From the NCBI GenBank assembly GCA_963678705.1, contig OY783203.1, positions 29,122,535 to 29,186,534 on the forward strand: a stretch of 64,000 nucleotides of DNA, written 5' to 3'. The notes under the pieces were generated by a model, which saw only the letters and a program-made list of their open reading frames with translations, was not told where the DNA came from and ran no database searches. This DNA comes from Panorpa germanica (taxonomy: Eukaryota; Arthropoda; Insecta; Mecoptera; Panorpidae). How positions within the stretch are numbered: the stretch's first letter is position 1; each line of letters opens with the position of its first letter. Position numbers and translations under genes: made by a program. Of this stretch, positions 22,541 through 64,000 are shown piece after piece.

Positions 22541-24470
22541 TTAACGTTTATTTTTACAAAAATCATTAATCCAAACAGCTAATGTTCTATCAATAATTAT
22601 GGATTTAACTGATTTTGAATGCTTTGGGCAATTTATTCTTAAATCTATCTGCAGTTGATTAAATAAAATACTATAATCAAATTTACATGCAGTTTCTTCT
22701 CAATATTTTAAAATAATGCCGGCTGCCTTTTCTACAAATTGGATTAATTCTTCAGATGGATACGTTAGGGATTTTCTTCCGTCTACATTTTCTTTAAAAA
22801 CTATGTATATGTTATTAGGATCGTTTACTGAACCAAAAAGATCATTTTTAAATACCGCAACCAGAAGACTTCAAAGGTTTCGCAATAAATCCTGCTACAT
22901 AAGCATATCCTACCTTTTCGAAATGAGTAGTAAAATCTTCCTCATTGATGTTAAAATCCCCAAAATTTTATACAGTTGTATTTAATTCTGGTAACACTTT
23001 TTCCAAATTCTTATTATTAGTATTTTTATGTCCCATAATGAATTCTTTAAAATTAATCAGTAAATCATTATTATCATCAGAACAATTTGATGTTTTAGTA
23101 TGTGCTGTTAGTTTATGAATTAAACATACTTTTAAGGAACTAATGAATTGGTTGCACATGGGCATAATATAGCGACCTCCAATTTGACGAATTTGTCCAA
23201 ATAAATTTTCTATAGATCATATATTCCTCTACTTTTAAAATATTCAGAAACTTGAATCATGCCCTTCAAAGCATCAACCCAACCATTTATACATTTTATT
23301 TTCTTTCCAGATATTTTAACTTTCGGGTTTTCCGGACTATAAAATTTCGACAAAGGCATTTTTTTATAATATTGCGCCAAAATTCTAAGTGTTCCGATTC
23401 TTTGGTTACTTTTTCTCGTAGAGGTTTCATACTAGCAGACATAGTGCCATTTACACTGTCAAATAATTGGTCCATCCACTGTACGAGTACAAATTCTGAA
23501 GTGTAAATAGAATCCTGAATTAGAAATAGAATATTGTTCGTTCCAGGACTGTTTATTAATGCCATGGTTTGAATCATAACAGCTGTAGAATTGCTCAGCT
23601 GCTTTGCTGCAATACCAACTCTCATTTTCATTCTAGTGTTTTCTCTGATTTTCGTAAAATGTTCCTCCTTAAGGCTAAACATCAATTTAACACGCCTCAT
23701 TTGATCGCCTTGAAATGTCTTAACTAAATGTGACCATTTGGCTCTCTTATACGAATTGTCTGGATCGAATTGAATATCTTTATTTAAGAAATTGTTCCTT
23801 AAATTTTTAAATAAATGTGGAGGATCTGCAATATAAATTACATTTTCTCCATTTACTTTAAAAGATTGTTTCCCTGCGCGCAGCTCTTTCATAGCTCCGA
23901 TAGAGTGACCTCCTTGGTCGGACACTAAAACTACTACAGTTATTTTGGTTTTCTGCAATTATTCTATTACATTTATAATAATCCTTTTTAATACGGCCTT
24001 AGGAACTGTTCTCTTTGTTAAGTAATATGAAATTTAGCTCTTTCTTCGTCCTAATTAATTCTTCATACAGCTTTAATTTTTCGGGTGACAAATCGCGCTT
24101 GTGCGATATATTCATAAAGCGCAAAATGCTTCTATTCCTGAATAGTTTTTTACCTGAAAAGTATAATATAGTTAAGCATTTACAGTAATGCAAATAATTG
24201 TTGTATAACTTTAGTCATGTCAAACACAAACAAATATACCTGCAGCATTAATATTCCGTATTGACGATAATATTGACGATGAAGATGTTGCAGATGCCGT
24301 AGTTGTAGCTCTTTCTGTGTAAAATGTATACAAGAGTCAATACATAAAATGCATTTCTAAAAATACAAACAAATAACAAAACGAACCTGTGGAGATAGTA
24401 TTTCGTATTAACGGCATTTCAGAACTCCCCAACAAATTAACCTTATGCATTGTACTAGATTGTGTAGGCA
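22541..24470 (-). pseudogene. P element / THAP9-like transposase remnant
   Basis: Read on the minus strand. Pieces at about 24470-24380 and 24325-24239 are Ser/Thr-rich with exon-like borders. A piece at about 24170-24003 reads KLFRNRSILRFMNISHKRD and ends at a stop. The main frame, 23958-23296, carries SDQGGHSIGAM and IADPPHLFKNLRNNF, the pattern of the P-type DDE core, in which DQG and the DPPHLFKN motif hold or flank catalytic acids. Further pieces are IENLFGQIRQIGGRYIMP (about 23220-23160), VGYAYVAGFIAKPL (about 22915) and a tail ending CKNKR at the stop 22541-22543. The order and motifs match P-type transposases, which cut and paste DNA using GTP as cofactor. Stops and frame changes between pieces show the gene is dead, although some breaks could be introns. 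Confidence 0.75.
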
Positions 24471-32789: not shown

Positions 32790-33166
32790 GCGGCTTGGTT
32801 GAGGGGTTAGAACTCTCAGAGCAAACCGACTCCTGTATTCTTTGCATGTGTTGTATTACAATAAGTTAACTTGTGTACTATAGGGTGCATTGGAGTTGTA
32901 CATAATTTATCATGAGAGCAAGCTTTTACTTAAATTTTTATCGATACACCACTGTTATGAAAGAGACTATTGCATTCTCTTTCCTCTTCCTTCTAGTGTA
33001 TTCATTGGGTTCCTTTCATGTATTCGTTTAGTTAAAATTCGCTGACATACGCTTCCAGAATGAGAGCTACGTAACGCCCGTATTCTGACGGCTTTGTCGC
33101 TTGCAGTGCACTACGGTTCATTGCATTTACAGGGTTCGGATAGGTAACGCGTAGTAGCGTGCATAC
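32790..33166 (-). repeat. MITE family V, copy 1 (fragment)
   Basis: It shares 'GGGTTAGAACTCTCAGAGC', 'TTTATCGATACACCACTG' and 'ACAGGGTTCGGATAGGTAA' with 54125-54582, and the latter blocks in complement with 49254-49923. 'GTGGTTAGA'-type sequence in copy 3 and 'GGGTTAGAA' here, followed by 'CCGACTCCTG', vaguely recall tRNA A and B boxes, but the match is too weak to call a SINE. The right side is cut by the element at 33167. Confidence 0.6.
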
Positions 33167-33504
33167 GGCCGTCTGCACATGGGTCGACTGATTGCAAACG
33201 TCAACTGTGTTGTTAGTGAGAAAACGCACGTGTATACGAGTGAGAGAACACACACGGCACGAACGAAACTAAACCGATTTAAAATTGGTTTTGATCGGCT
33301 GTGTTTTTTGGTCGCAAGACAATTACGTTGCATGCTATTGATGGTGACATCCTGAGCGATGGTGACACAATAAAATCCCCTATTATACTATTGTTAAAAA
33401 TTCTATAAAGCCACAAAACACGGCTCGACATGGTTCTTTTACGTTTTGCTTGAAAACTTCGTTCGCGGCTAGTTTGCAATCAGTCGACCCGTGTCCAGAC
33501 GGCC
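33167..33504. mobile_element. MITE with GGCCGTCTG ends (338 bp)
   Basis: Left GGCCGTCTGCACATGGGTCG and right (read inward) GGCCGTCTGGACACGGGTCG continue together through 'ACTGATTGCAAAC', an inverted match of about 33 bp. It sits at the broken edge of MITE family V copy 1, so it probably inserted there. No coding capacity. Confidence 0.75.
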
Positions 33505-45334: not shown

Positions 45335-47938
45335 ATGGTTCTGTGGCCGTTACTGTTTTTATATATAATCTGTTGTTTTCCTTGTAGTAAGTAGATATAT
45401 TTTATTTATTTGTTTTTTTTTTTAATTACCACAATCTCTTGTAATATTGGTTGTCATATGTGAGTAAAATCGGTATCTAATGCTAGTTTTGTATAATGAA
45501 ATAAACAAAGCGAAAATTTCGGACGCTATTGCACTTTAATTGTAGTATTCATCAACTTTTATGTTGCTTGGATTCTGACAGGTGAAGTGGTTTCGCCATT
45601 TGACTGTGATGGCAAAAATTAATAGATTTAAATAAATATTATTTCGATTGATTTAAACTGTGTTCTATTATACTTAATATTATTTGCAGAAATGCTTACC
45701 TTTATAGATTCTAATACCGCTGGAATACGTCACTGAATGATATATATTACGTAACATTTTTTAAACTACGTGGAATGTTCCCTATATTAAATAAACCTTA
45801 AATACACGGTGTCTGTCATGTTTAATTGATTAGACTCAATATTATTTTCAGGATTAAGCTGTCAGTATTTGCCGGAGTCATGCTTTAGATCTTGTGAAGT
45901 GAATGTGTGTAATTCGTGAGTATTCTTTCTTATAAATAATATAATATAATAATATATAAATGGTTGTCCATTACGCCCATGACTCCATGGTTAATAAATA
46001 AATTAAAACTCAACCTTCAGCGAATGCATCTTACCCAATCAGCCACCAAATGGTAAATACGCAGTGATTGGGACCGCACAAGGCGCCACCCCTACACCAG
46101 GAAGCAGGGTTCGCAACTCCACTGTGCTATACTTTACCTGCAATTCCGGTTACAGACCAATTGCTGCTTCTACTGCAATCTGTTTAGAAAGTAAATGGGT
46201 CACAGATTTTCGTTATTGTGAAAGTGAGTGTTCTTTTGTTGTATAGATACCAGTATTTGGTAATTTTTTAAACCTTTTAAATTCTTTTTCTCAGAAATCA
46301 AAGAATGCGTTCTTCCTCAACTTCCACCGAACGGAGGGTACAATATTGTGGGATCCCCTAATCAACCAAATCCTGGAACAGAAGCAAAGGAATGGACAGC
46401 GCTGACGTATTTCTGTGATTCTTCGTTTACATTAGTTGATCAAGCAACTGCTGTTTGTCAAAGTGGTCAATGGTCATCAAATCCACCATATTGCCGGAAT
46501 TCCAGTTTGTTCCATAGCATTTTGTGCATTATTATATTTGAAGTAATATTTCAACGAATTATTGTATTTCAGAAACCGTTACGTGTGTTCTACCAGAACA
46601 ACCACAAAATGGCCAGTATACAATTGCAGGATCGTCAATTTCACCAGTTCCTGGACAAACCGTTAGTGATTCCACATCATTGTCATTCGGTTGCTCGGCA
46701 AATTTCAAGTTAATTGGGGAATCTGTTGTGAGTTGCAGTGAAGGTTCATGGTTGAGAACTTTTCCGACCTGCGTAGGAGCTGGAAAATCTTGTACTCTAC
46801 CAAAACAACCTAGGAATGGTCAATATGCAGTTGTTGGATCCTTGATCGATCCAATCGCGGGACAATCTGTTCCTGATTTAACAGTGTTATACTTTTACTG
46901 CTATAGCACCTTTGAATTAAGTGGAGGTGGGGTAGCTGTATGTTCTCAAGGACTGTGGCTAAATGGTATACCGGTATGCAATGGTAAGTTTAGTAAACCA
47001 TGTAATAAAATGAACATAACTATTAGTAAATTACTGCAGATTCATTAAAGCTACAGAACCTTGGTTTCTTTCATGTTATGGTTTTCTGGGTTTCTAATTC
47101 TGGTTAAAATTCTCGTTATAGTTATAAAGTTCTCGTAAAGTTATAAAATACTTTGTATTCTTCTCGGGTGTATTCCAATATTTATCTTAATTTTATATTT
47201 CAGTAAACTGGCAATGTTCTTTGCCTTTGTTTCCGGGAAATGGAACTTATATGTTGTTAGGATCAGACGATTCCGTATTACCAGGATTTGACGTAAGTGA
47301 GAAGGAAACCATTCAATTCAGTTGCTCGCCGCAGTTCCAGTTGGTTGGCACAGAATATAGTACATGTTATAAGGGATCATGGACTTCTGCACCTCCCGTT
47401 TGTGTTGGTAAGAAATTACACGTTTTTCTGTGTATATGATTATTATTGTTCAATGACCATGCTGTAATAATCACATATATAGCTTATCCTAAATTCTTTG
47501 ACGAGTGACGTCAGAGAAATGGCGGCTATACTTCGGTTCTAATTACGAAATGTGCAATAGATACTTTTATATTTCTGTAAAAGTGAGCATATCTCTTAAT
47601 AAAGCTTCTAAATGCCCAATAAAAAGAAGTGATTCACAATCTGCTAAATGAAATATGCCGCCATCTCCAAGAAGCTATAACTTTCCTAATAAATGACTGA
47701 TTACTTGATTGTTTTAGAACGGAATGGCTGCGTAGTTCCTCATGCACCATTTAAAGGAAGCTTGTCATTAGTTGGCTCTACAAATTCTCCTATTGCTGGT
47801 TCAGTAGTAGGTGAAAACCAGGTGTTGATATTTACTTGTGAGCCAGGATATAAGTTGTACGGTAATGAGAGTGTCACGTGCTCTGAAGGAGTGTGGACGG
47901 CCAAAGTTCCACTTTGTACAGATGGAGTCATATTTTAA
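45335..47938 (+). CDS. sushi (CCP) domain protein A, six domains, secreted
   Basis: Seven exons: 45335-45386, 45852-45915, 46021-46223, 46295-46504, 46573-46983, 47204-47407 and 47718-47938, giving 454 residues. Exon 1 is a signal peptide (MVLWPLLFLYIICCFPC). Exon 2 is a short Cys-rich head (YLPESCFRSCEVNVCNS). Then come six sushi domains of about 65 residues, each with four Cys, a Pro-rich start (CxLPxxPxNG), a GSxxxPxPG turn and a Trp before the last Cys. Such domains bind proteins or glycans outside the cell, as in complement regulators and insect cell-surface or clotting proteins. No transmembrane segment follows; it ends CTDGVIF. NST in domain 1 is a possible N-glycosylation site. Exon 5 encodes domains 3 and 4 without the intron expected between them. 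Domains 4-6 match domains 6-8 of gene B. The ligand is unknown. Confidence 0.9.
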
Positions 47939-48570: not shown

Positions 48571-49254
48571 ATGGAATATCGAAACAAAGGTGTAAGACAG
48601 TATGACAGAGTTGAAGAACAGATTGTTCTGAACGGCGTCAATTCTTCCAATGAAGATCAAGCAAGAATATCACCTGACCTAGTTAAATTACCCCAGAATG
48701 GACTAGATATTAAAGTGGATATCACCGAATTAGAGAATGAGCTGGCAGCAAACGCCATTGGATTTCGAGATCTCTTATTTGGACAAACTATGGCTGAAAG
48801 GATGCAAATTATTAGAGAAACCCATTTTCTTGATCGAATAGTATGTTTAGACTTGGCTCATTTTCGAAGCCATAGAATTGTAGGAGTAACCAATGAATTC
48901 GTCAGTTTTAGAGAACTGACTTTGAATGAATGTGAACTTACTACCCTTCAAGGTTTCCTAGAATAACCTAACCTGCTGGCCGTGTCGCTGGAGCTAAATT
49001 ATATAACAGGTGAACTTCATTTGCTACAGAAGAGTCCCTTACTTCGGATTTTGGATATATCACGTAACCCTATTTCGAATTTCAATGAATTAATTCCGCT
49101 AGCAAGTTTTGAACACCTACGCTATTCAGACATTCATAGAATTTATGTATACGATATAGCAATGTGCAGATTAGAAGTTTTCTATGCTATACCCCAATTG
49201 TTATACTTGGATATGTTTGATAGAGCTATGGAAAAAATGGCGAGGGACTTTTAG
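48571..49254 (+). pseudogene. ANP32-like leucine-rich repeat gene, copy 1 (broken)
   Basis: One intronless frame of 228 codons, interrupted by a TAA at 48964-48966. Before the stop it reads an N-terminal region of about 65 residues, then MQIIRETHFLDRI and VTNEFVSFRELTLNECELTT, the first leucine-rich repeats. After the stop the same frame continues LRILDISRNPISNFNELIPL and ends LYLDMFDRAMEKMARDF. The alignment with copies 2 and 4 is continuous across the stop, so it is a nonsense mutation, not an intron. The last codons of the family (DLGF/DLGY) are replaced by a MITE inserted at 49254, whose TA target supplies the present stop. The ATG at 48571 is the only in-frame start before the conserved part. 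It may still make a short N-terminal peptide. Confidence 0.8.
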
Positions 49255-49923
49255 GCCTGTCTCAGTATGGCACCGTATTTAAGCGAATTTCTGCCGGACG
49301 TATTCGGGCTACTACGCTTTACCTATACGAACCATGTAAATGTAATGAGATCGCTCTGGAGCTCTCAGACTGCACGCTACAAAGCAGTTCGAATACGGGC
49401 GGCACTACCTCGCACATTAGAACCGAATAAAGGCGAATTTTATCCAAGCGTTACCACTACTACAACGATACCCTATCCGAACCTTTGTAAATGCAAAAAG
49501 CCGCCTCAGACTGGAGGGGATACCTAAGATCGCCTTTTGTTACGCTGCAATACGGGTCAAATGAAATCTATCGGCGACATGGGTATGTTCTGCATGCAGT
49601 TTATGTTTGCATTTCAGTGAATCATGGACACGGATACCGATACCAATACGATAGAACTAAATTTAAATTCACGCCCACCAGAACTCAGATATATAATAAA
49701 TGCTAAAGTCCCTTTAATACCAGTAGTGTATCGATAAAAATTAAAGTTAAAGTTTGCTCTCATAATAAATTATATAAGTGCTAAAGAACTCCAATACACC
49801 CCCTATTACACGACTACAGACATCTGTGACACACATAGGCGGTTTGCTTTGTAGCTCATTCAATCCGCCGATTTACGTCCAAATACGCCGTCGCTTAAAT
49901 ACGGTCCCATACTGAGACAGGCC
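49254..49923. mobile_element. MITE family V, copy 2 (complete, TA flanks)
   Basis: Inverted ends GGCCTGTCTCAGTATGG (left, then 'CACCGTATTTAAGCG') and the complement at the right enclose 670 bp, with TA on both sides, indicating a Tc1/mariner-like or similar transposase. The interior contains 'CGGGCTACTACGCTTTACC' and 'TTTTTATCGATACACTACTG'-type blocks (complement) shared with copies 1 and 3. It inserted into the 3' end of the ANP32-like copy 1. Open frames inside (49267-49706) are not conserved. Confidence 0.8.
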
Positions 49924-51004
49924 TAATTCTTTCTGTAGAGTAGACTACTGAATTTGGTTATAAATGTAATAATTTTGTAACTTATGACTGTAAAATTAAA
50001 TTTTCATATAAATTGAATTGAAATGAATTGAATATTATTTATGTCTCTAGGCCCATTTAATATCATAATATTACTATAAACATTTGTTATTTTACTAGCT
50101 ATACAGTTTCATCTCTCTTGCCGTTATTTTCCCTTCTTACACTACTAACACCATTCATCTATTTTATACCTTCTTCTTTCCCTGCAGGATTTCTATCAGG
50201 TATACTTCGCTTTCCACCTTCTTCCTACATCTAATCTTAATATACTCTAATGTTTCCTCTGCGTTGCCACACATCCTGCCTGCATCGTTTCTCATCCCCC
50301 GCTCACAATACCTACTGTCCTTTTCTTCATTCTCTAGTCTAAACCTCACGATCTTTTTCTTTTTTTTAACACTGTGTTTTTCTAGGTATTGCGGCAATTT
50401 CCATTTAAATAAATAAATGTTATTATTAAAGTTAAAGTGTGAGTCGAATTCTAAAAAAAATAAAAAATTTCAAAGACAATTTATGAACTTTTATGAAGAT
50501 CGTAGTCTTAGTCAATGATAGACAATGTTCTATACTCGTTATACCTAAGGTGTAAATATTTAAATTATTACGAATTTGATAGCATTATGATATTCATATA
50601 ATACTCGAATTATAATATTGATTACAATTTTATTGTTAGCAATAGTAAATGTACAGTTCAATAAAATATTTGATTAGTGGTTTATAAGCTGTACAAAATC
50701 AACACCAATGAATAAAAGATTTTTGTTGATTCAATTTAATCAATATGCGAGATCATTTCGGTGCTTTTGAGTTCTGTTGTTGATTTCTATTTACGAGGCA
50801 GTAGTCGGGTACGACAAAAACCTTTTGAAATAAAGCAATAATTGTGCCTTTACTGTTGGTGTTGAACTAAATAAATATGGCAATACCAGCTCGTCATTTC
50901 ATTCAATAAAGTTAAAGTGATAAGAGTCGTGAGTGCCCAGTTAAGTACTTGTTTTCTAGTACTTGTGTATTATTTTGGAAGTGACATCTAAAGATCTTCA
51001 CAGC
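49924..51004. other. spacer with a retroelement fragment; start of duplicated block
   Basis: AT-rich spacer containing the retroelement fragment at 50164-50397. From about 50646 ('AATAAAATATTTGATTAGTG') the sequence is closely repeated at about 54710, marking the left edge of the block that duplicated to give ANP32-like copy 4. No gene of its own. Confidence 0.6.
50164..50397 (-). pseudogene. non-LTR retroelement C-terminal fragment
   Basis: The minus strand reads RFRLENEEKDSRYCERGM followed by MCGNAEETLEYI and a Cys, resembling the conserved Arg/Glu-rich and CxxC...E motif at the C-terminus of certain insect non-LTR reverse-transcriptase proteins. No upstream reverse-transcriptase core is present. 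A similar fragment, on the other strand, is at 6415-6480. Confidence 0.4.
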
Positions 51005-51706
51005 ATGGCGGGTAATGGCGGATTTCATGACGAGGACAATTTTTTCCCCAACCGCAGAGGAAATCGAAATGAAGAACACGAAAATGTTGATCCAGACTTA
51101 CAAAATGGTGCAGTAGCCTTTCGAGTTGAAATCAATGAAAACAGAATTGATTACATAGCTATTCCAGAGGCGGAGGAGCATCATTATCTGCCTTCCATTG
51201 CTAGCAGAATGGAAGTTATTAGGGAAGAAAATGTGATTGAAGAAATGTTAAGTTTAACTTTGGTTGGTTACGAGGGTAGTTCACTTAATGGAGTTATAAC
51301 CAGACAATTCATAAATCTTATGGATGTTAATTTGCATGGTGTCCAACTTACTACTCTTGAGGGTTTTCCAGCGTTGCCTAATCTTAGGAGATTAGATTTG
51401 AGCCTTAATTTACTGTATGATGGCTTTGAACTATTATTGAACTGTCGTCTACTTCAATTTTTAGATATTTCCCAGAACTTAATTCATAATTTTGATGATT
51501 TACTTCCGCTTCGAAATTTAAGGATCCTTCAATATTTATGCGTTCTTCCACGTCGATTACGTGCTCCAGATGAGTTCCACGACAGGTTGCCGGACGCTGT
51601 TTTTAATAGTTTAGTGCACTTACAATATTTAGATATGCGCGATAGAAACGGAACCGAAATAGAAATGAAGGATATAGAAGAAGATCTTGGATTTAAATTT
51701 GTTTAG
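51005..51706 (+). CDS. ANP32-like leucine-rich repeat protein, copy 2
   Basis: An intact intronless gene of 233 residues. Residues 1-70 are acidic and Asn-rich without a recognised domain. Residues 75-205 are leucine-rich repeats: ITRQFINLMDVNLHGVQL, FPALPNLRRLDLSLNLL, LLQFLDISQNLIHNF and LRNLRILQYL, then a capping VFNSLVHLQYLDMRDRNG. The order, spacing and cap match the N-terminal domain of ANP32 (acidic nuclear phosphoprotein 32), in which the repeats bind proteins such as histones and PP2A. The long acidic tail of ANP32 is absent; the protein ends DLGFKFV. There is no signal peptide, so it is probably intracellular. The ATG at 51005 follows CAGC, as in copy 4, and starts the paralogous alignment. 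It is close to copy 4 in sequence. The function is inferred only at family level. Confidence 0.85.
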   Translation: MAGNGGFHDEDNFFPNRRGNRNEEHENVDPDLQNGAVAFRVEINENRIDYIAIPEAEEHHYLPSIASRMEVIREENVIEEMLSLTLVGYEGSSLNGVITRQFINLMDVNLHGVQLTTLEGFPALPNLRRLDLSLNLLYDGFELLLNCRLLQFLDISQNLIHNFDDLLPLRNLRILQYLCVLPRRLRAPDEFHDRLPDAVFNSLVHLQYLDMRDRNGTEIEMKDIEEDLGFKFV

Positions 51707-51799
51707 AATATTACTTTGATTAAATATGTATATAGTTTGATTATAGAGTTATTGAATTTGTAAATTAAAATTGTAAAGTAAATGTAAGTTATTTAAGTA

Positions 51800-51805
51800 A
51801 ATAAA
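51800..51805 (+). terminator. likely poly(A) signal of ANP32-like copy 2
   Basis: AATAAA 94 bp after the stop; the same motif lies at 55866-55871 after copy 4. Confidence 0.5.
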
Positions 51806-52423
51806 TTGAGTAATATTAATTAACACAAAAGTGCTATTTAAATGTGTAAAAGGAAAGCTAAGGTGGAAGTTAAGACGCATTTTACTGATGTAACCTTTCT
51901 TCATATTTTATTTATAAATTGTTGATTATGAGTCACTTTATCTCAATCGACATCAAATAGAAACGTTCTGCTCCTATCTGCAACAAAAGTATCTTCATTT
52001 CTTACACTTAAATTGGTATTTTATATCATCGTTCGAAATAAATGTTTGAAGTTGCACCAGTGAAGAAGCTCCATTAAATTTTGAGTTTTCATTTACTCTG
52101 AAAATATAGTTATTGTGAATTTAACATTATTATAAATTCCTTTGCTTATAAATTTTTAAACTATAGACTTATTGTAAAATGTGAACAATCGTCTCTTAAC
52201 AAAATAGTTCAGCTTTATTAAATAAACACTTTTGTTGATACAATTTTACATTATAAAAGTTTATTCTTTACTTTCAATTCAATTCTTCATTTTGTAAGAC
52301 TAGTAACAAGTTACAAACCGCACGCTGTCGGTCTGTTCCATCAACGTTCAGCTGAAGCACCACGCGGACACGTGGGATTAATTGTGTATTGTGGAAATAG
52401 TGTTTGTAAAAAATCTACTAATC
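51806..52423. other. spacer between ANP32-like copies 2 and 3 (duplicated at 55900-56350)
   Basis: Non-coding. Long blocks such as 'CCATTAAATTTTGAGT' and 'TTATAAATTC' plus 'AACTATAGACTTATTGTAAA' recur at 55996-56335 in the same order, showing that copies 2 and 3 moved as one block. It holds the presumed promoter of copy 3; the GC-richer stretch at about 52318-52375 is a candidate transcription start area. Confidence 0.6.
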
Positions 52424-53053
52424 ATGGATAGGGACGATATTCCCTTGGAGACCAGTGAAGAGGAAGGTTTTGTAGTAATTAAAAGGGCATTCGAGCCTTT
52501 AATCGATAAGATAGACGAGAACGAAGGCCCTCTCCCTTACCTAGAAAAAAGTATGGCAGAAGCAACGACTATTGCTAGAAGTTGCAAACATATTAGTGAA
52601 GTGACAGCTTTAAATTTAAACATGTGTCGCAGTGACAACATAAGTGGACTGACTAATGAATTTACACATCTTCAAGATCTTTGTCTTAATGATATTGGAC
52701 TTCAAAGTATCATAAATTTTCCGTCATTGCCATCTCTCAAAAGGCTCTCACTGAGATTTAACAATCTAACTACTGGACTTAAAGCTTTAAAGTCGTGTCA
52801 CTCACTCATGTTTCTAGATTTATCTGGCAATCCATTGAGTACCTTCGACGCATTAACACCACTTCAGTCTTTAAAGACACTAAAGTATTTAGACCTTTTC
52901 AATATTAAATTACGTAATATTTTGCTACACAGAGATAAGGTATTCAAACTTATAGAATCATTACGTTACTTGGATACGTTCGACAAAAATTTGGTAAAAG
53001 TAACACGGAAAAAAATAATAAAAGATCTTCAATTTGAACCTATTGGGTTATAA
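52424..53053 (+). CDS. ANP32-like leucine-rich repeat protein, copy 3
   Basis: An intact intronless gene of 209 residues and the clearest ANP32 relative. After an acidic N-terminus (ETSEEEGFVVI) and about 60 further residues come LTNEFTHLQDLCLNDIGL, FPSLPSLKRLSLRFNNL, LMFLDLSGNPLSTFDAL and LKYLDLFNIKL, then RDKVFKLIESLRYLDTFD, which parallels the ANP32 cap (YLDLFN...VFKLLPxLTYLD). The usual acidic tail is missing; the protein ends DLQFEPIGL. There is no signal peptide or membrane segment. The ATG at 52424 is the first Met in frame after a stretch open from 52382. It is divergent from copies 2 and 4 and has its own decayed duplicate at 56351. The lack of introns suggests origin by retrocopying, which the sequence does not prove. 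Confidence 0.88.
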   Translation: MDRDDIPLETSEEEGFVVIKRAFEPLIDKIDENEGPLPYLEKSMAEATTIARSCKHISEVTALNLNMCRSDNISGLTNEFTHLQDLCLNDIGLQSIINFPSLPSLKRLSLRFNNLTTGLKALKSCHSLMFLDLSGNPLSTFDALTPLQSLKTLKYLDLFNIKLRNILLHRDKVFKLIESLRYLDTFDKNLVKVTRKKIIKDLQFEPIGL

Positions 53054-53305
53054 AACTTGCCGTAAATCGATTTAAATAAGTATATAGTGATGGTAAACCT
53101 GTCCGAGAAAGAACACTTGTGAAGTCATTTATTTGAACTAGGATATAATTACTACGAGCTGGAAAGATGAACCTATGAATAGCATCATTATCAAACCAAA
53201 ATTTTCAAACATATAATTTTTTTATTTATATTTTATTTGTACTATGTATCAGTAAACATTTCAACTAAATTTGGGTGGAATCCTTACTTTTCGGTATTTA
53301 CTGTC

Positions 53306-53311
53306 AATAAA
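53306..53311 (+). terminator. likely poly(A) signal of ANP32-like copy 3
   Basis: AATAAA about 250 bp after the stop codon. Confidence 0.45.
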
Positions 53312-54124
53312 ATAAGATCAAATACCATGTATTAAACTGATAGAAACAAAATTATTAATTTAAATACATTAATTTATAAAGAAAAATATTGAGTTTTATT
53401 TGTAATTTATAAGAGGAAATTTTCGTATCAACCTTTCTTCAAAACTAGTTTTGCTACTACAACTAAGATCTGGACCGATGGTGACACCAGGAGACTACGA
53501 CCAGACCCTTCTGCGCAGACCACCGTGACCCTGCTACGCAATAACACTTTATAATAATTATATAAAAGTGATAAATATTTCACTTGCCTCACCGATTCCT
53601 TGATGCATTACCAGGCCCGGATTTGAGGGAGGGCAGGTGGAGCTACTACCCCGGGACCTCCACAATAGAGATAAAAGCAATAGATTTTTGAAAGACTTGA
53701 CGGAAGAAATTGCTCCTTTATTCGGAAAATAATTAGGGGCTAGTTGCTTCTCAAAAAACATAAACTCATGTATTATTTAACGTAATATTTTTTACTTAAC
53801 GTTTCATTTGGTTATTTACCGAAGTTTAACATAATTCTGATATATTGTCAGTAAATAAATACTTTATTATTATTAAATTATTTAATCTTGAACAGTTTCA
53901 CGCTTGCTAGCTTGCCTTGACCTGATTGCAAGGTTCGTTTTCTATTTCTCAAATAGAAATTGTCTTGCCGTGGAAATGTCACACTTGTTAGCTTACTACA
54001 ACCTAATTAAAGTTACATTGACACTGAGAACATTAGCGGCTTAGAAAGATATTTTACAACGTCAAAAGACATAAATTTCATCAAAAATAACTTTAAATTT
54101 TGTAGAAGAATTCCTCTTAGTATC
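53312..54124. other. spacer with one possible hAT-type end
   Basis: No gene. 'CAGGCCCGGATTTGAGGG' at about 53611, followed by 'CCCCGGGACC', looks like the terminus of a hAT-type MITE, but no partner end was found. Confidence 0.4.
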
Positions 54125-54582
54125 TGTAACTTAGTGGTTAGAATTTTCAGAGCAAGCCGACTCCTGTGTGGTTTGCATGTGTTGTATGACAATACATACC
54201 ACGTACTGATACTACAGTACGCCAAGTCAAACTTGTGTACTGCAGGGTGTATTTGAGTTGTTTTGCTCTAACATAATTTATCATGAGAGAACACTTTTAC
54301 TTTAATTTTTATCGATACACCACTGTTATGAAAGTGACTATTGCAGTTCCTTCCAGTTTGAGACGGCTGATTGCATTTACAAGGTTAAGATAGGTTTAAC
54401 GTTGTAGCATGTATTTGCTGGGATAAAATTCGCTTAAATACACTTCCAGTATGAGAGCTACGTATCGCTCGTATTCGGACGGCTTTGTCGCTTACAGTGT
54501 GCGAGGGTTCATGATATTTACAGGGTTCGGATAGGTAAAGCGTAGTAGCGCGTACATGTCCGCTTGTAATGTGCGACAGGCC
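54125..54582 (-). mobile_element. MITE family V, copy 3
   Basis: It shares 'AGTGGTTAGAATTTTCAGAG', 'TTTATCGATACACCACTG' and 'GGGTTCGGATAGGTAAAG' with copy 1, and ends in 'CGACAGGCC', matching the terminus of copy 2. The opposite terminus is not evident. It lies between the two duplicated ANP32-like blocks. Confidence 0.6.
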
Positions 54583-55005
54583 TTTGTTACATGACATACA
54601 ATATTAACAGTTTGCACTTGTTGCATCTACATATAGGAAGTATACTTTATATTATTATTGCAATTAAATGTTGGAAATATTTAAACATAATTATTACTGA
54701 TACAATCATACAATAAAATATTTGATTAGTGGTTTATAAACTGTACAAAATCAACATCAATGAATAAAAGATTTTTGTTGATTCAATTTAAACAATAGGC
54801 GAGATCATTTCGGTGTCTCAGAGTTCTGAAACGCAGAGCCCGTGTACGTTTAAAGCGTAGTGATTGCCTATCCCATAATTGTGCATTTATTGTTGGTGTT
54901 GAAGTAAATAACAGCTCATCATTTCATTCAATATTGTTAAACAATCGTCAGTGCTAATTTCGTGATCATTTTGTGTATCAAGTGATAGAAAAAAATCCTA
55001 ACAGC
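54583..55005. other. 5' flank of ANP32-like copy 4 (duplicate of 50646-51004)
   Basis: From about 54710 it is strongly similar to the flank of copy 2, including 'GTTTATAAACTGTACAAAAT' and 'CGAGATCATTTCGGTG', up to the ATG. It probably carries the promoter and 5' untranslated region shared by both copies. Confidence 0.6.
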
Positions 55006-55737
55006 ATGGACCGTAATGACAGATGGAATGACGACGTTCCTTGTTTAGAGAACTACGACGATGAAAATAAAGAGAAAATCGACTTAAGTGTGGCCGAAGG
55101 AAAAACCGAAGTCGTAGGCAAAAATGACAAGGAAATACTCATTCTAGTAAATGGCGTGAGAATAAATGACGCCAATCAATCCGAACCTAAACGCAAAGTA
55201 ATTACATTCCCGAGATGGGTTGATAGTTCGCCTTCCTTGAATAGAAGATTGGAAATAATTAGGCAAGAATATCTGATTGAAGAAACGACAAAATTAAGTT
55301 TCTTAGGCTGTCGCGGTACTATAATTCCGGACCTACTCAATACATTCGTAAATCTTATGCATCTAAATTTGCAAGGTGTCAACCTTTCTGTTCTTGTAGA
55401 TTTTCCGGCGTTGCCTAATCTCCGACGACTCAATTTGAGCAATAATATACTTTGTAATGGCTTTCAATCCTTATTGAATTGTCCTCAACTTCAATTTATA
55501 GACATTTCACGAAACGCTATTACTACTTTTGAAAACTTACGTCCACTTGGATTTTTAAGAAACCTACAATGTTTAGGTCTTATTCCACAACGCATGCCTT
55601 TTACATATGAGACCCTCGATGAATTGCATGATACCTTGTTCGATATTATGCCACATTTACAATATATAGATAAGACGAGTAGAATTGGCATTATAATGTT
55701 ACCAGAGATAGCAAACGATCTTGGATATTTAGTATAA
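55006..55737 (+). CDS. ANP32-like leucine-rich repeat protein, copy 4
   Basis: An intact intronless gene of 243 residues, paralogous to copy 2. A charged N-terminal region of about 85 residues precedes LLNTFVNLMHLNLQGVNL, FPALPNLRRLNLSNNIL, LQFIDISRNAITTFENL and LRNLQCLGLIPQRM, then a cap with IMPHLQYIDKTSRIG. It ends EIANDLGYLV, with no acidic tail. The N-terminal region differs from that of copy 2 far more than the repeats do, so the two have diverged unevenly. The ATG at 55006 lies at the position equivalent to the copy 2 start. Intracellular by absence of a signal peptide; the molecular role is unknown beyond a protein-binding repeat domain. Confidence 0.85.
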   Translation: MDRNDRWNDDVPCLENYDDENKEKIDLSVAEGKTEVVGKNDKEILILVNGVRINDANQSEPKRKVITFPRWVDSSPSLNRRLEIIRQEYLIEETTKLSFLGCRGTIIPDLLNTFVNLMHLNLQGVNLSVLVDFPALPNLRRLNLSNNILCNGFQSLLNCPQLQFIDISRNAITTFENLRPLGFLRNLQCLGLIPQRMPFTYETLDELHDTLFDIMPHLQYIDKTSRIGIIMLPEIANDLGYLV

Positions 55738-55865
55738 CCTTTAATATAATAATAATATTTTAATAATATTTTAAGTATATAATGAATGATATATTTATAA
55801 ATTCACTATATAATATAATGAATTTATAAATTAAAATTTTAAAATAAATTTACGTTATTTAAGTA

Positions 55866-55871
55866 AATAAA
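55866..55871 (+). terminator. likely poly(A) signal of ANP32-like copy 4
   Basis: AATAAA 129 bp after the stop, equivalent in context to 51800-51805. Confidence 0.5.
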
Positions 55872-56350
55872 TTAAGTAATAATAATTGACAGAAAAATCC
55901 CATTTAATGTATAAAAGGAAAAGCTAAGGTGAAATGGTACGTGTTTCATATTCTAGTGAGAAATTGGTCATTATTCGTTATTTAATATTTATCCATATCA
56001 AATAGAAACATGCTTTCTGCTCCTAACTGCAACAGAATTATCTTCATTTCTTACACTAAGGTGTATTTTATATCATCGTTCTGACTAAATGTTGGAAGTT
56101 GCATCACTGAAGATACTCCATTAAATTTTGAGTATTCATTTACTCTAAAAATATAGTTATTGTGAATTTAACATTATTATAAATTCTTTTACTTATACGT
56201 TTTTAAACTATAGACTTATTGTAAACAATTGTAAAATGTGAACAATCATATCTAAACAAAATAGTTTAGCTTTATTAAATAAACACATTTGTATTTTTAT
56301 TAAATAAACAATTTTACATTATAAAAGTTTATTCTGTAGATCTTCTCATC

Positions 56351-56541
56351 ATGAATAGTGACAGTGTTCTATTGGAGTCCAGTGAAGAAGACGACGGTTT
56401 CTTAGTAGTTTACCATGTAGCCAATCTATGCCTAATCAGGCAGACAAACAGGAAGTATCCATAGCTGACGCAATGGATACTGTTAGGAGAATCCAATATA
56501 CTCGTCTTAATGAATTTAAACATCTTGATTACGTTTAGCTA
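56351..56541 (+). pseudogene. ANP32-like copy 5, decayed duplicate of copy 3
   Basis: The start MNSDSVLLESSEEDDGFLVV parallels the N-terminus of copy 3 (acidic SEEEGFVVI motif). After a small deletion and frame change a second piece reads SIADAMDTVRRIQ, parallel to KSMAEATTIAR, and the match ends at about 56541. All leucine-rich repeats are missing. The flank at 55996-56350 matches the flank of copy 3, confirming origin by block duplication and later deletion. Confidence 0.75.
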
Positions 56542-59150: not shown

Positions 59151-62100
59151 ATGCTTCTTTGGCTGTTGCTGTTTTTAGATATATTTTGTTGTTTTCCGAG
59201 CGGTAAGTAGATATTTTATTGTACTCTAAATAGTGTTTATTATTTTATTGATGCAAAACGTTTTAACAAATATTTTCAATTCGTAACGGTTTGAGAACTA
59301 AGTTAATTACGAGTATTTAAATAAAAGCATTTTACAAAAACATTTATTTACTGGTTTAGATTTTAAAATAATTTCATGTAAATAATCGCATCTGGACTTT
59401 TAAATAAGTATATTTAGATTTTAATAATCCTAAAAATGGATGATTACCTTTTACCTTATGATTTTAGTAACAATAAATATTACTTGCAGGATTAAGCGGT
59501 CAGTATTTGCCTGACACTTGCATTAAATCTTGTGAGGTCAATGTGTGTAATTCGTGAGTATTCTTCTTGGTTTTCCATTACGCATATGACGTCATTGTTA
59601 TTAAATAAATTAAAATTCAACCTTCAGGGAATGCATCTTGCCCAATCTGCCACCTAATGGTAAATACATAGTAACCGGAAGCGCACAAGGCGCCGTCCCT
59701 GTACCAGGAAGCAAAGTTCGCAACTCCACTGTGCTATACTTTACCTGCAATTCCGGTTACAGGCTAGTTGGTTCTTCTACTGCAATTTGTTTAGAAAGCC
59801 AATGGATCACAGATTTTAGTCATTGCGAAAGTGAGTGTTTAAAATATCTTTTGTTGTATAGATATCAGTAGTTTCTAACACTTTTAATTTCCTTTTCTCA
59901 GAAATCAAAGAATGCATCCTCCCCAAACTTCCAGAAAACGGAGGGTACAATATTGTGGGATCCCCAAATCAACCAAACCCTGGAACAGAAGCAAAAGAAT
60001 GGACAGCATTGACATATTTCTGTGATTCTTCGTTTACATTAGTTGGTCAAATGACAGCTGTATGTCAAAGTGGTCAATGGTCATCAAATCCACCATATTG
60101 CAAACGCCAAAGTATATTTTATAGTTGTTTATGCAAAACATAATTTGATGGTATAAATAAATGAGTTACTATATTTCAGAAACTCATAAGTGTATTCTAC
60201 CCGTACCATCACAAAATGGTCAGTATGTAATTCTAGGATCACCAAACGCACCAGTTCCTGGCCAAATTGTTACCGATTTGACAGCGTTGTCCTTTACCTG
60301 CTCAGACAGTTTCACGTTGATCGGAGAATCTGTTGTTATTTGTAGTGAAGGATCGTGGTTGGGGAGTTTTCCAACATGCAGTGCCGGAGGTATGAGAAAA
60401 CGTTAAACTATTTTTAGTTATATTAATACATGAATTTTTCATTGCATCTAGGAAACCAAAAATGCGTTTTACCGAATTTTCCGCAATACGGAAATTACAT
60501 AGTGTTAGGATCAGCAACTACTCCAGTACCTGGATCTTCCGTTAATGACAGAGATACCTTGCAATTTGTATGCATGCAAGGATACGAATTAATTGGTAAA
60601 GAAACCAGCACGTGTTTGAGTGGCGAATGGACCTCAGATGTTCCTCATTGCTCACGTAAGTGTAACAAGCAATTTTATAAATAATTTGTAATGATTTTAT
60701 TGTACAGCGTCAGTTTAAGTTAACATTTAATAAATTAAACATTCTATAGCTCCAAAAACTGACCACTGCGTAGTGCCCAATCCACCTATAAATGGAAATT
60801 ATTTTCTCGTTGGCTCAGTTACACCTCCTATCGCTGGTTTAATTGTAGATGAGTCAAGTACTCTGAAGTTCTCCTGTGAATTTGGATTCCAACTGGTTGG
60901 AAATTCTAGCAGCACTTGTTTCGCAGGAAAATGGACTCCTGAAATTCCACGCTGTGCTGGTAAGCACGTTACAGTTTATAATTTCTTTCATACTTTTCGC
61001 GTGAAGCTTACTTATATTGTAACGATGACTTTTCTGAATTAGAAACTACAAAATCTTGTTTGTTACCCGACCAACCAGAGAATGGTGGATTTGGAATTGT
61101 TGGTTCCATGATCGATCCAAACACTCCACAATTGGTTCCGGAATTAACAGTTCTGAACTTCTTCTGCAATTATAACTTTGAATTAAGCGGAGGTGCGATA
61201 GCTGTGTGCGCCGGAGGTCTCTGGTTGGGTGGTATACCTATATGCAATGGTAAGATGCACACTACTTAAGACTTCTCATTTTGGCTGTTTAATAAATTCG
61301 TCCATAAAGTCAAATTCACAATTATTGTTACTTTTTCAGAAGTGAAGCGATGTACTTTCCCTTTGTTTCCTGGAAACGGAACATACACGATGGTTGGATC
61401 AGTTGAACCTGTAATGCCAGGATTTAGCGCAAAGGAGAAAGATACCATTAAATTTAGCTGCTCCTCTCAGTTCCAATTGGTTGGCACAGATTGGAGCACG
61501 TGTTCTAATGGATTATGGACCTCTGCTCCTCCCGTTTGTGTAGGTAAGACAAATACTGTTCTTCTTTTTTGTACTAAAGTCCAAGTACATGACAGTTATT
61601 CCTTATTTATAACATTATATAATAATTTATTGATTTAGAACGTAAAGGATGCGTGGTACCTAATGTCCCAGATAAAGGAAGCATGTCTTTAGTTGGGGCT
61701 GCCAACCCTCCTGTTCCTGGTTGGACTATTGGCGAACAGCAAACGCTAATATTTACTTGTGATCCAGGATATCAATTAATTGGCAAAGACAGTATGACGT
61801 GCTTTGGGGGAGAATGGACAGCTCAAGTTCCATATTGTGTTGGTAATATATAACTATCAAATATAAAAATACTAAAATATAAAAAACTGTTTAGTTATGA
61901 ATACATTTGACAATAATTATTCAATGTAATAAAATACAAACACAACGTTTCTCTGCTGTTTATCTCTGCTAACATTATTACCAATTGTTTTAGAAAAGAA
62001 AGGTTGCGTTGTACCAAATCCACCAGATAATGGAGGTTACTTAATAATTGGGTCACCAAATCCACCATCACCTGGTGTAATTGTAAACGAGAAGGAGACC

Positions 62101-64000
62101 TTGCAATTTACCTGTCAACCCGGGTTCCAACTTCTTGGTAAGGAGTGGAGTACGTGTTCCGGAGGAAAGTGGACATTTGGAACACCAGTTTGCAGAAGTA
62201 AGACATGGAAAATAATGAAAGACAAGCAGGACAAAGTAACTTTTATAATACATTAATCAATTTTTATACTTTCAGAAATTAAATATTGTACTTTACCCGA
62301 ATTCCAAGACAACGGCAGTTATGTGATTATTGGTTCTGCAAATACTGCAATACCAGGCTCCGCTGTAGAAGAGAAGGAAACTATCAAATTTGTTTGTAAT
62401 TCAGGATTTAAGTTGGTGGGCAGCGATAGTAGCACTTGCTTTAATAACATTTGGACGAGCGAAGTTCCTAAATGTGTAGGTAAGGAAAATGGTTAACACT
62501 CTTATCACTTATCTTCTGGACGAGATAAGATGCATAACAAGTGTGTCTTATAAATAAATACTTACTTAGTAAAATGATGTATTTTCAGATTCTAGAGTCT
62601 GCGTTATTCCTGATCCTCCGGAGAAAGGTTGTTATAAGTTAGTTTTATCGGCAACTGGTTCAAATGCAGGATCCAGTGTTGGTGCGGGAAGTATTTTAGA
62701 GTTCACTTGTCAAGATGGATTTGTACTAACGGGTGACAAAACTAGCACATGTGTAGGAGGAAAATGGACAACCAAAGTTCCACTATGCTCTGGTAAATAT
62801 CGAATATATCATCTATAAAATTGGAAAACAACTAAAACATACTTAGGACTATCCACGTTACAAATTATAAAACTACAAAATTACGTTTATCCATTCTAGA
62901 AATATAATCTGCATTAATCAGTAACGTAAAAAACGTAGTTGTTATTTAATTATTACGTATATATTTATTACATCTTCAAAATAGTAAAATAACAATTTAA
63001 TGTATTAGCAAAACTTTCAAAAATATTTGTTTATTGTAGAAAAAACAGGTTGCGTTGTTCCTGAACCACCAGCAAAGGGAATTGTTGCTCTAGCTGCATC
63101 TGCAACTCCCTTAACACCTGGATCTATTCTTGGTGATTCCAGCATAATACAGTTTACTTGTGACTATGGATTAGTTTTAATTGGAGAGGCGCAAAGTACA
63201 TGTTCTGGTACACAATGGTCGTCAGAAGTTCCAAAATGTGAAGGTAAGACAATATCAACATTTTACAGATTAACGGGTGACAAAACTAGCACATGTGTAG
63301 AAGGAGAATAAACAACCAAAGTTCTACGATGCTCTGGTAAATGTCGAATATATCATCTATAAACTCAGAAAATAACTAAAACATACTTAGGACGAAAAAC
63401 TATTTGTTCTTATTTTTGTTAAAAATTTTATTTAGTAACGTATCCACGTTACAAATTATAAAACTACAAAATTACGTTTATCCATTCTGGAAATATAATC
63501 TGCATTAATCAGTAACGTAAAAAACGTAGTAGTTATTTAATTATTACGTATATATTTACTGCATCTTCAAAATAGTATAATAATTATTTAATATATTAGC
63601 GCAAATTTTCAAAAATATTTGTTTATTTAAGAAAAAACAGGTTGCGTTGTTCCTGAACCACCAGCAAAGGGAATTGTTGCTCTAGCTGCATCTGCAACTC
63701 CCTTAACACCTGGATCTATTCTTGGTGATTCCAGCATAATACAGTTTACTTGTGACTATGGATTAGTTTTAATTGGAGAGGCGCAAAGTACATGTTCCGG
63801 TACACAATGGTCGTCAGAGGTTCCAAAATGCGTAGGTAAGACAATAACAACATTTAACAGATTTGGTAGATTATTTGAAGATGTTATCTTAAATCTGGTC
63901 TTATTGTTGTAGAAAAAAATACTTGTGTGATCCCTAATCCACCAACTGATGGAAAAATTGTGTTAATCGGATCAACATCCGTTTCCAAGCCAGGCGATGT
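59151..64000 (+). CDS. sushi (CCP) domain protein B, at least 14 domains, 3' end outside window
   Basis: Exons: 59151-59202, 59490-59553, 59628-59830, 59902-60111, 60180-60389, 60452-60655, 60750-60959, 61043-61249, 61340-61543, 61639-61842, 61994-62197, 62276-62479, 62589-62792, 63040-63243, 63632-63835 and 63913 to beyond 64000. Exon 1 is a signal peptide (MLLWLLLFLDIFCCFPS) and exon 2 the Cys-rich head (YLPDTCIKSCEVNVCNS) shared with gene A. Each later exon is one sushi domain of 203-210 bp bounded by phase-1 introns, so exons can be added or lost without frame change. Domains carry four Cys and a conserved Trp; typical pieces are CVLPNFPQYGNY and STCLSGEWTSDVPHC. The protein should be extracellular and bind proteins or glycans. 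Domains 1-3 and 6-8 match gene A domains 1-3 and 4-6; domains 4, 5 and 9 onward are extra. Domains 12 and 13 are nearly identical copies. A membrane anchor or other C-terminal domain may lie past the window. Confidence 0.9.
63269..63345 (+). pseudogene. broken tail of a duplicated sushi exon
   Basis: It repeats the last part of exon 62589-62792 ('TAACGGGTGACAAAACTAGC' to 'TGCTCTGGTAAAT'), but a GGAGAATAA here puts a stop where the parent reads Gly-Lys-Trp. It lies in the intron after exon 63040-63243, lacks a splice acceptor of its own, and is the left edge of the tandem duplication that created exon 63632-63835. Confidence 0.85.

Follow-up and report, generated by a model that had tools for sequence, protein, structure and literature searches.

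Intronless ANP32-derived genes without the acidic tail on the X chromosome of the scorpionfly Panorpa germanica

ANP32 relatives on the X chromosome

We analyzed a stretch of 64,000 nucleotides (G000:C21:29122535-29186534, hereafter the window) from the German scorpionfly Panorpa germanica (Mecoptera), which carries a cluster of five copies, W1 to W5, of a gene related to ANP32. Table 2 of the genome note of this species (PMC11464959) gives the 47.99-Mb contig C21 as the X chromosome, and the window is therefore X linked. The window copies, together with those of a main cluster (M1 to M9) on the same chromosome, are ANP32 relatives by descent and by fold, and our results support the recognition of seven of them (W1 to W4 and M5 to M7) as a distinct subfamily, the "new family" of an initial annotation of this DNA, in which the acidic tail has been lost and an N-terminal extension gained. 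Since the tail that enters the definition of the ANP32 family is missing, we refer to the copies as ANP32-derived and not as ANP32 proteins.

The ANP32 origin of the leucine-rich repeat (LRR) domain, as proposed in the initial annotation, was confirmed by searching the sequences of W2, W3, W4 and M4 against solved structures. In particular, the first eight matches of W3 were all ANP32 (E 8e-25 to 3e-23), and the same eight structures came first for W2 (E 4e-10 to 1e-5) and for W4 (E 4e-10 to 1e-8), ANP32 also ranking first for M4; one of the eight appears in the sequence table as an LRRcap domain-containing protein, whereas its entry title names chicken ANP32A. W3, already singled out as the clearest copy, indeed had the best E value (8e-25 versus 4e-10 for W2 and W4). 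Furthermore, the first eight Foldseek matches of the predicted structure of W3, the sole copy modelled, were all ANP32, with template modelling (TM) scores of 0.73 to 0.78 by target. The confidence of this model, obtained with the three window proteins, is moderate, with a mean predicted local distance difference test (pLDDT) score of 57.5 (28.5 to 42.3 in four other models), block means of 67 to 80 in residues 81 to 160 and a predicted TM score (pTM) of 0.57.

Assignment of the copies to another LRR family (for example, U2A' or LRRC) was the outcome that the initial annotation had named as contrary to its proposal. U2A' (U2 snRNP A') is a short LRR protein with a cap similar to that of ANP32, and the Pfam search gave some room to this alternative, in that only the generic LRR_4 model scored above the cut-off in W2, W3 and W4, LRR_9, which we take to be the U2A'-type model, remaining below its own. 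ANP32 nevertheless ranked first by sequence in all three open copies and by fold in W3. Moreover, a separate gene on the same chromosome (C21:46.01 Mb), which we call U2A'-like on the basis of its LRR_9 match, is a long and very distant outgroup in the LRR-domain tree and was not matched by W3 in the genome search at E 0.01. The attribution to U2A', to SDS22/PPP1R7 or to another LRR family is thus refuted as far as the tools used reach, and we regard it as extremely improbable. Searches with NCBIfam models gave weak LRR matches only, far below the cut-offs, and when viral contigs were scanned once with W3, six pattern matches and no relatives were obtained.

Genomic distribution and origin of the copies

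Whole-genome searches with M4 and W3, which covered 464,208,970 bases in 249 contigs (the published note counts 254 scaffolds, five more), returned the same 13 X-linked loci, i.e., W1 to W4 and M1 to M9, and two LRR exons of a gene on chromosome 6; these counts are lower bounds, so that there are at least 13 X-linked loci. W5 gave no LRR domain in either search. Apart from a fragment on chromosome 3 (see below), the remaining matches were weak, one with M4 (E 0.004) and four with W3 (E 0.002 to 0.009). The main cluster (C21:28,967,511-28,991,198, minus strand), composed of nine intronless copies about 180 kb from W1, lay outside the view of the initial annotation, whose suggestion of a local expansion is supported. 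A stray fragment of the family was also observed on an autosome (G000:C3:15279049-15279141, minus strand), where 31 residues are 81% identical to the C terminus of W3; it was found in the W3 search only.

On chromosome 6, the gene has the standard features of ANP32, with introns after residues 16, 70.7, 141.7 and 180.3 and a long acidic tail; a KKRK motif is present in its likely last exon. The first three of these introns (16, 70.7 and 141.7) interrupt the LRR domain, and they are missing in all 13 X-linked copies that are open or nearly so. This test covers the LRR domain, and the description of the window copies as intronless stands for W1 to W4. Because all three LRR-domain introns are gone in every copy, we infer that the first X-linked copy would have been a reverse transcript of an ANP32 mRNA. 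The X-linked copies are 33 to 59% identical to the chromosome 6 gene (W1 to W4, 33 to 40% in the LRR domain), and at such identities they should be regarded as old.

Human ANP32C and ANP32D, which derive from ANP32A, represent the nearest published parallel that we found. A passage of the literature describes them as intronless, smaller copies of ANP32 and possible pseudogenes (PMC2936576). They are two genes, in contrast to the at least 13 Panorpa loci, which are arranged in two clusters and include seven with new ends. A literature search aimed at an X-linked ANP32-like family, carried out on titles and the starts of abstracts, found no description of one.

Altered N and C termini

The X-linked copies thus share with ANP32 the N-terminal LRR domain and its cap, and differ from it in their introns, in their C terminus and, in the seven subfamily members, in their N terminus. 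In none of the 13 copies is the LRR domain followed by a run of five or more aspartate or glutamate residues, and the long C-terminal acidic region is absent, in agreement with the tail loss that had been noted for the window. M4 and M9, which are outside the subfamily, retain short acidic ends, with 16 and 14 acidic residues, respectively, among the last 30. In six of the seven subfamily members (W1 being cut off), the C terminus follows a loose short pattern (IIKDLQFEPIGL, DIEEDLGFKFV, EIANDLGYLV, EIMERDFTFI and DIAKALGFQPI), the ends of M5 and W3 being identical. When the 13 copies were searched for a C-terminal nuclear localization signal, RKK in W3 was the only basic run detected downstream of the LRR domain.

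At the opposite end, the residues that precede the position of the first methionine of the chromosome 6 protein number 73 in W1, 64 in W2, 43 in W3, 77 in W4, 112 in M5, 84 in M6 and 78 in M7 (range, 43 to 112). An N-terminal addition is therefore present in W1 to W4 as previously described, even though its length does not keep to the reported 60 to 85 residues throughout. The extensions of the seven genes are acidic, to an extent that varies from gene to gene. To judge this acidity, we used 523 pieces (612 for W3) of overlapping open translations from all six frames of the first 44 kb of the window; the pieces as acidic as the extension were 10 for W1, 2 for W2, 1 for W3, 19 for W4, 2 for M5, 3 for M6 and 0 for M7, in a set whose pieces, at 43 to 45 residues, are shorter than most extensions and from which transposon-coding DNA was not purged. 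The start codon has A at position -3 and G at position +4 in each of the seven genes, and a CTTCACA sequence occurs upstream of the start in four of the seven genes (W2, M5, M6 and M7).

The window copies and their duplication history

The coordinates given for the five copies proved correct, as did their division into three intact and two broken genes, all on the plus strand. W1 (48571-49254; partner M7, an open copy at L011:5293-6039) is ANP32-like with an N-terminal extension but contains one in-frame stop (48964-48966), and its last residues are replaced by a transposon-like element (49252-49925) with inverted ends of about 35 bp (97%) and TA at both borders, which truncates the gene. W2 (51005-51706, 233 amino acids; partner M6, L011:2567-3325), W3 (52424-53053, 209 amino acids; partner M5, L011:889-1749) and W4 (55006-55737, 243 amino acids; sister to the W2/M6 pair) are open, intronless and without the acidic tail, W3 having the clearest ANP32 LRR domain and cap. 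W5 (56353-56541) is a remnant of a W3-type copy that corresponds to the start of the N-terminal extension, as judged from 71 bp that match the beginning of W3 (56340-56410 versus 52413-52480, 75%, E 1e-6) and from its position in a tandem duplication. W1 and W5 would be dying copies. An AATAAA signal occurs within 400 bp after each of W1 to W4, which by our estimate is expected by chance in such AT-rich DNA and was not used as evidence. Partial copies of the element that truncates W1 were also observed at 54245-54562 and 32873-33171.

DNA comparison showed that W1-W2-W3 and their flanks follow the same order as M7-M6-M5, with identities of 77, 76 and 86% in the main pieces; therefore, the window cluster derives from a block of three genes of the main cluster that was copied in inverted orientation to another place. 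A further tandem duplication (51190-56410, plus strand) relates the W2-W3 unit to the W4-W5 unit (51190-52270 versus 55230-56338, 72%), and the far 3' flank of the two units is up to 93% identical in one 150-column stretch. In the LRR-domain tree, where the star level of the tool was reached by 4 of the 12 inner branches, W1 groups with M7 (99/98), W3 with M5 (100/99) and W2 with M6 (94/91), W4 falling outside W2+M6. The seven genes form a single clade with a support of 93/97, just below the star level, in a tree that includes the host Anp32 gene, in accordance with the distinct group postulated initially; the chromosome 6 gene has zero branch length in the unresolved base.

The relationship among W2, W4 and M6, scored over window positions 50563-52270 and 54614-56338 and over L011:2040-3722, changes along the sequence. 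W2+M6 is favored in the 5' flank (69 agreeing sites versus 19 and 28) and in the LRR-coding part (106 versus 43 and 44), the N-terminal part gives no clear pair (W4+M6, 34; W2+M6, 26; W2+W4, 21), and W2+W4 is favored in the 3' flank (105 versus 49 and 19). One reading of this mosaic, which the site counts suggest, is that the two clusters, although separated by 180 kb, have exchanged sequence by gene conversion.

Selection on the copies

Compared with their partners, W2, W3 and W4 contain 3 gaps in 1516 bp of LRR-coding sequence, none of which breaks the frame, versus 22 gaps in 1409 bp in the flanks of the same pairs, 16 of which would break it (Fisher p 9e-6); gaps on the M side are counted too, the W3/M5 flank aligns poorly (63%), and the flank comparisons W1/M7 (4 of 5 gaps frame-breaking) and W2/W4 (6 of 8) were left out. 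The only frame-odd gap in the coding comparison of W1 and M7 is an artifact of an end trimmed by one base. The chance that a frame would have remained free of stops under neutrality, considering substitutions only, is 0.024 for W3, 0.010 for W2, 0.00015 for W4 and 0.075 for W1, and with other branch lengths it is 0.010, 0.005, 0 of 10,000 and 0.045, respectively. The ratio of nonsynonymous to synonymous substitution rates (dN/dS) is 0.37 to 0.40 on the internal branches, 0.26 to 0.35 between older main-cluster pairs where computable and 0.56 to 0.95 between W pairs. W2/M6 also has a weak third-position excess of differences (p 0.05). The relaxed dN/dS that the initial annotation had considered contrary to its view gives a mixed picture, W3 (0.95) and W4 (1.93) pointing toward relaxation and W2 (0.42), with the conservation of the frame, away from it. 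On this evidence we read the genes as a fast-changing family in which frames have been kept, W1 and W5 being broken; among the window copies, W2 appears to be the one most safely regarded as functional, W3 and W4 are probably functional too, and the conservation of the frames argues against plain decay.

Genomic neighborhood

Seven open reading frames matching the sushi (CCP) domain lie on both sides of the window cluster and on the same strand (46264-47048, 47693-47938 and 60734-63311, plus strand). The ANP32-like cluster fills a 12.8-kb gap between them, the other gaps being below 0.8 kb; because of this difference, an intron of a sushi-domain gene may harbor the cluster, or it may stand between two sushi genes. 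Elsewhere in the window, an open reading frame (23299-23958, minus strand) matches the TNP-like GTP-binding insertion domain (PF21788, E 1e-9) and is presumably a remnant of a P-element/THAP9-type transposase. Inside the main cluster, between M3 and M4, a frame of 1264 amino acids (L010:22-3816, plus strand) looks like a Copia-type retrotransposon polyprotein by inspection. Finally, dozens of LRR matches, mostly in open frames of about 300 to 800 amino acids, occur on chromosome 5 (contig C5, mostly at 1-14 Mb), which apparently hosts a large, intron-poor group of LRR genes; these are outside the ANP32-like family, with one weak match in the whole-genome searches with M4 and W3.

Possible function and alternative explanations

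It is possible, with chances that we put close to even, that W2 to W4 and M5 to M7 are fast-evolving retrogenes derived from ANP32, expressed probably in the germline, which act as LRR-type regulators of histones and phosphatase. According to this hypothesis, the ANP32 LRR scaffold would have been kept and would be used as in ANP32A/B, i.e., for inhibition of protein phosphatase 2A (PP2A) and for nucleosome assembly, neither of which would need the tail, and the N-terminal acidic stretch would substitute for part of the binding of basic proteins by the tail. Passages of a study on ANP32B report that its LRR domain inhibits PP2A, that nucleosome assembly relies on the LRR domain, and that the acidic region aids binding via H2A-H2B (PMC8082267); therefore, a tail-less ANP32 LRR protein is a plausible active module. 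As regards the tissue, figures reported for the X chromosome of P. cognata indicate an excess of ovary-specific genes (5.34% versus 2.09% on autosomes) and a proportion of testis-specific genes (7.54%) that does not differ from that of autosomes (PMC10715201). In view of this gene content, a germline role is a fair guess and no more, and the role as decoys or partners of ANP32 targets suggested in the initial annotation is speculation.

Several observations weigh against the hypothesis of expressed ANP32-like regulators. The same source reports that male-biased genes are scarce on the P. cognata X (6.1% versus 11.9%; PMC10715201). W1 and W4 have the least acidic extensions, with weak acidity, and M8 has a separate extension that is basic. 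On the terminal branches, dN/dS is 1.47 in W1, 0.42 in W2, 0.95 in W3, 1.93 in W4, 0.54 in M5, 0.78 in M6 and 0.57 in M7, and only that of W2 differs from 1 (twice the log-likelihood difference [2dlnL], 4.55; p of about 0.03 before correction for seven branches); grouped terminal branches give 0.84 for W and 0.70 for M, neither of which can be distinguished from 1. The mosaic history of W2, M6 and W4 disturbs the rate estimates, that of W2 included. Moreover, differences are evenly distributed over codon positions in W3/M5, W4/M6 and W1/M7, and at half the branch length the no-stop chance rises to 0.15 for W3, 0.10 for W2, 0.005 for W4 and 0.28 for W1.

Some of these data would be expected if the window block were a decaying duplicate, with the main cluster alone functional and W2 to W4 as young pseudogenes that are still open. 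Two of the five window copies are already broken, dN/dS is about 1 or higher on the W3 and W4 branches, and W3/M5 and W4/M6 lack codon-position bias. Evidence against decay comes from the complete absence of frame-breaking gaps from the LRR-coding parts versus 16 in the flanks (M-side gaps included) and from the survival of the open frame of W4, which is unlikely under neutrality even at half the branch length, and W2 is perhaps constrained. In addition, the number of family-conserved positions that have changed is 3 in W3 versus 5 in M5, 5 in W4 versus 3 in its partner and 4 in W2 versus 1 in its partner, compared to 6 versus 0 in the broken W1 and M7. We therefore consider decay of the whole block doubtful, although it has to be taken seriously. 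A different explanation is genetic conflict, either sex-chromosome drive or defense against intracellular parasites, in which the copies, as decoys or suppressors that surround the targets of ANP32, would increase in number and evolve rapidly. Such a scenario would fit the X linkage, the repeated duplication and the mosaic pattern, suggestive of exchange between the two clusters, and the LRR-coding parts diverge about as fast as the flanks in W2/M6 (79.5% identity versus 80.1 and 87.4%) and W4/M6 (68.5% versus 67.8%) but not in W3/M5 (85.2% versus 63.2%). The site models preferred a small fast class (7% at an omega of 2.6), but the test for positive selection was not significant (2dlnL 2.94, 2 degrees of freedom). 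A drive phenotype in Panorpa is not known to us, although no search for one was made, and this also counts against conflict, which appears unlikely. Stellate in Drosophila and Slx in mouse are sex-linked, multicopy and fast-changing germline families; the X-linked ANP32 copies resemble them in sex linkage, copy number and fast change.

Returning to the hypothesis of ANP32-like regulators, its most far-reaching form, namely, that the acidic arm has moved from the C to the N terminus, that the proteins act on histones or PP2A in the germline and that sex-chromosome conflict has been the driver, is quite improbable. If true, it would mean that a histone-chaperone architecture has been rebuilt on an X chromosome whose P. 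cognata counterpart shares its ancestry with the original X of flies. The acidic tail is part of the name of ANP32 proteins, which are regulators of histones and of phosphatase 2A; a natural LRR family without a tail and with an N-terminal arm would test which ANP32 functions need the tail. Being X linked, multiplied and rapidly changing, the family could be a candidate player in the regulation of germline chromatin or in conflict between sex chromosomes in Mecoptera, which are relatives of flies.

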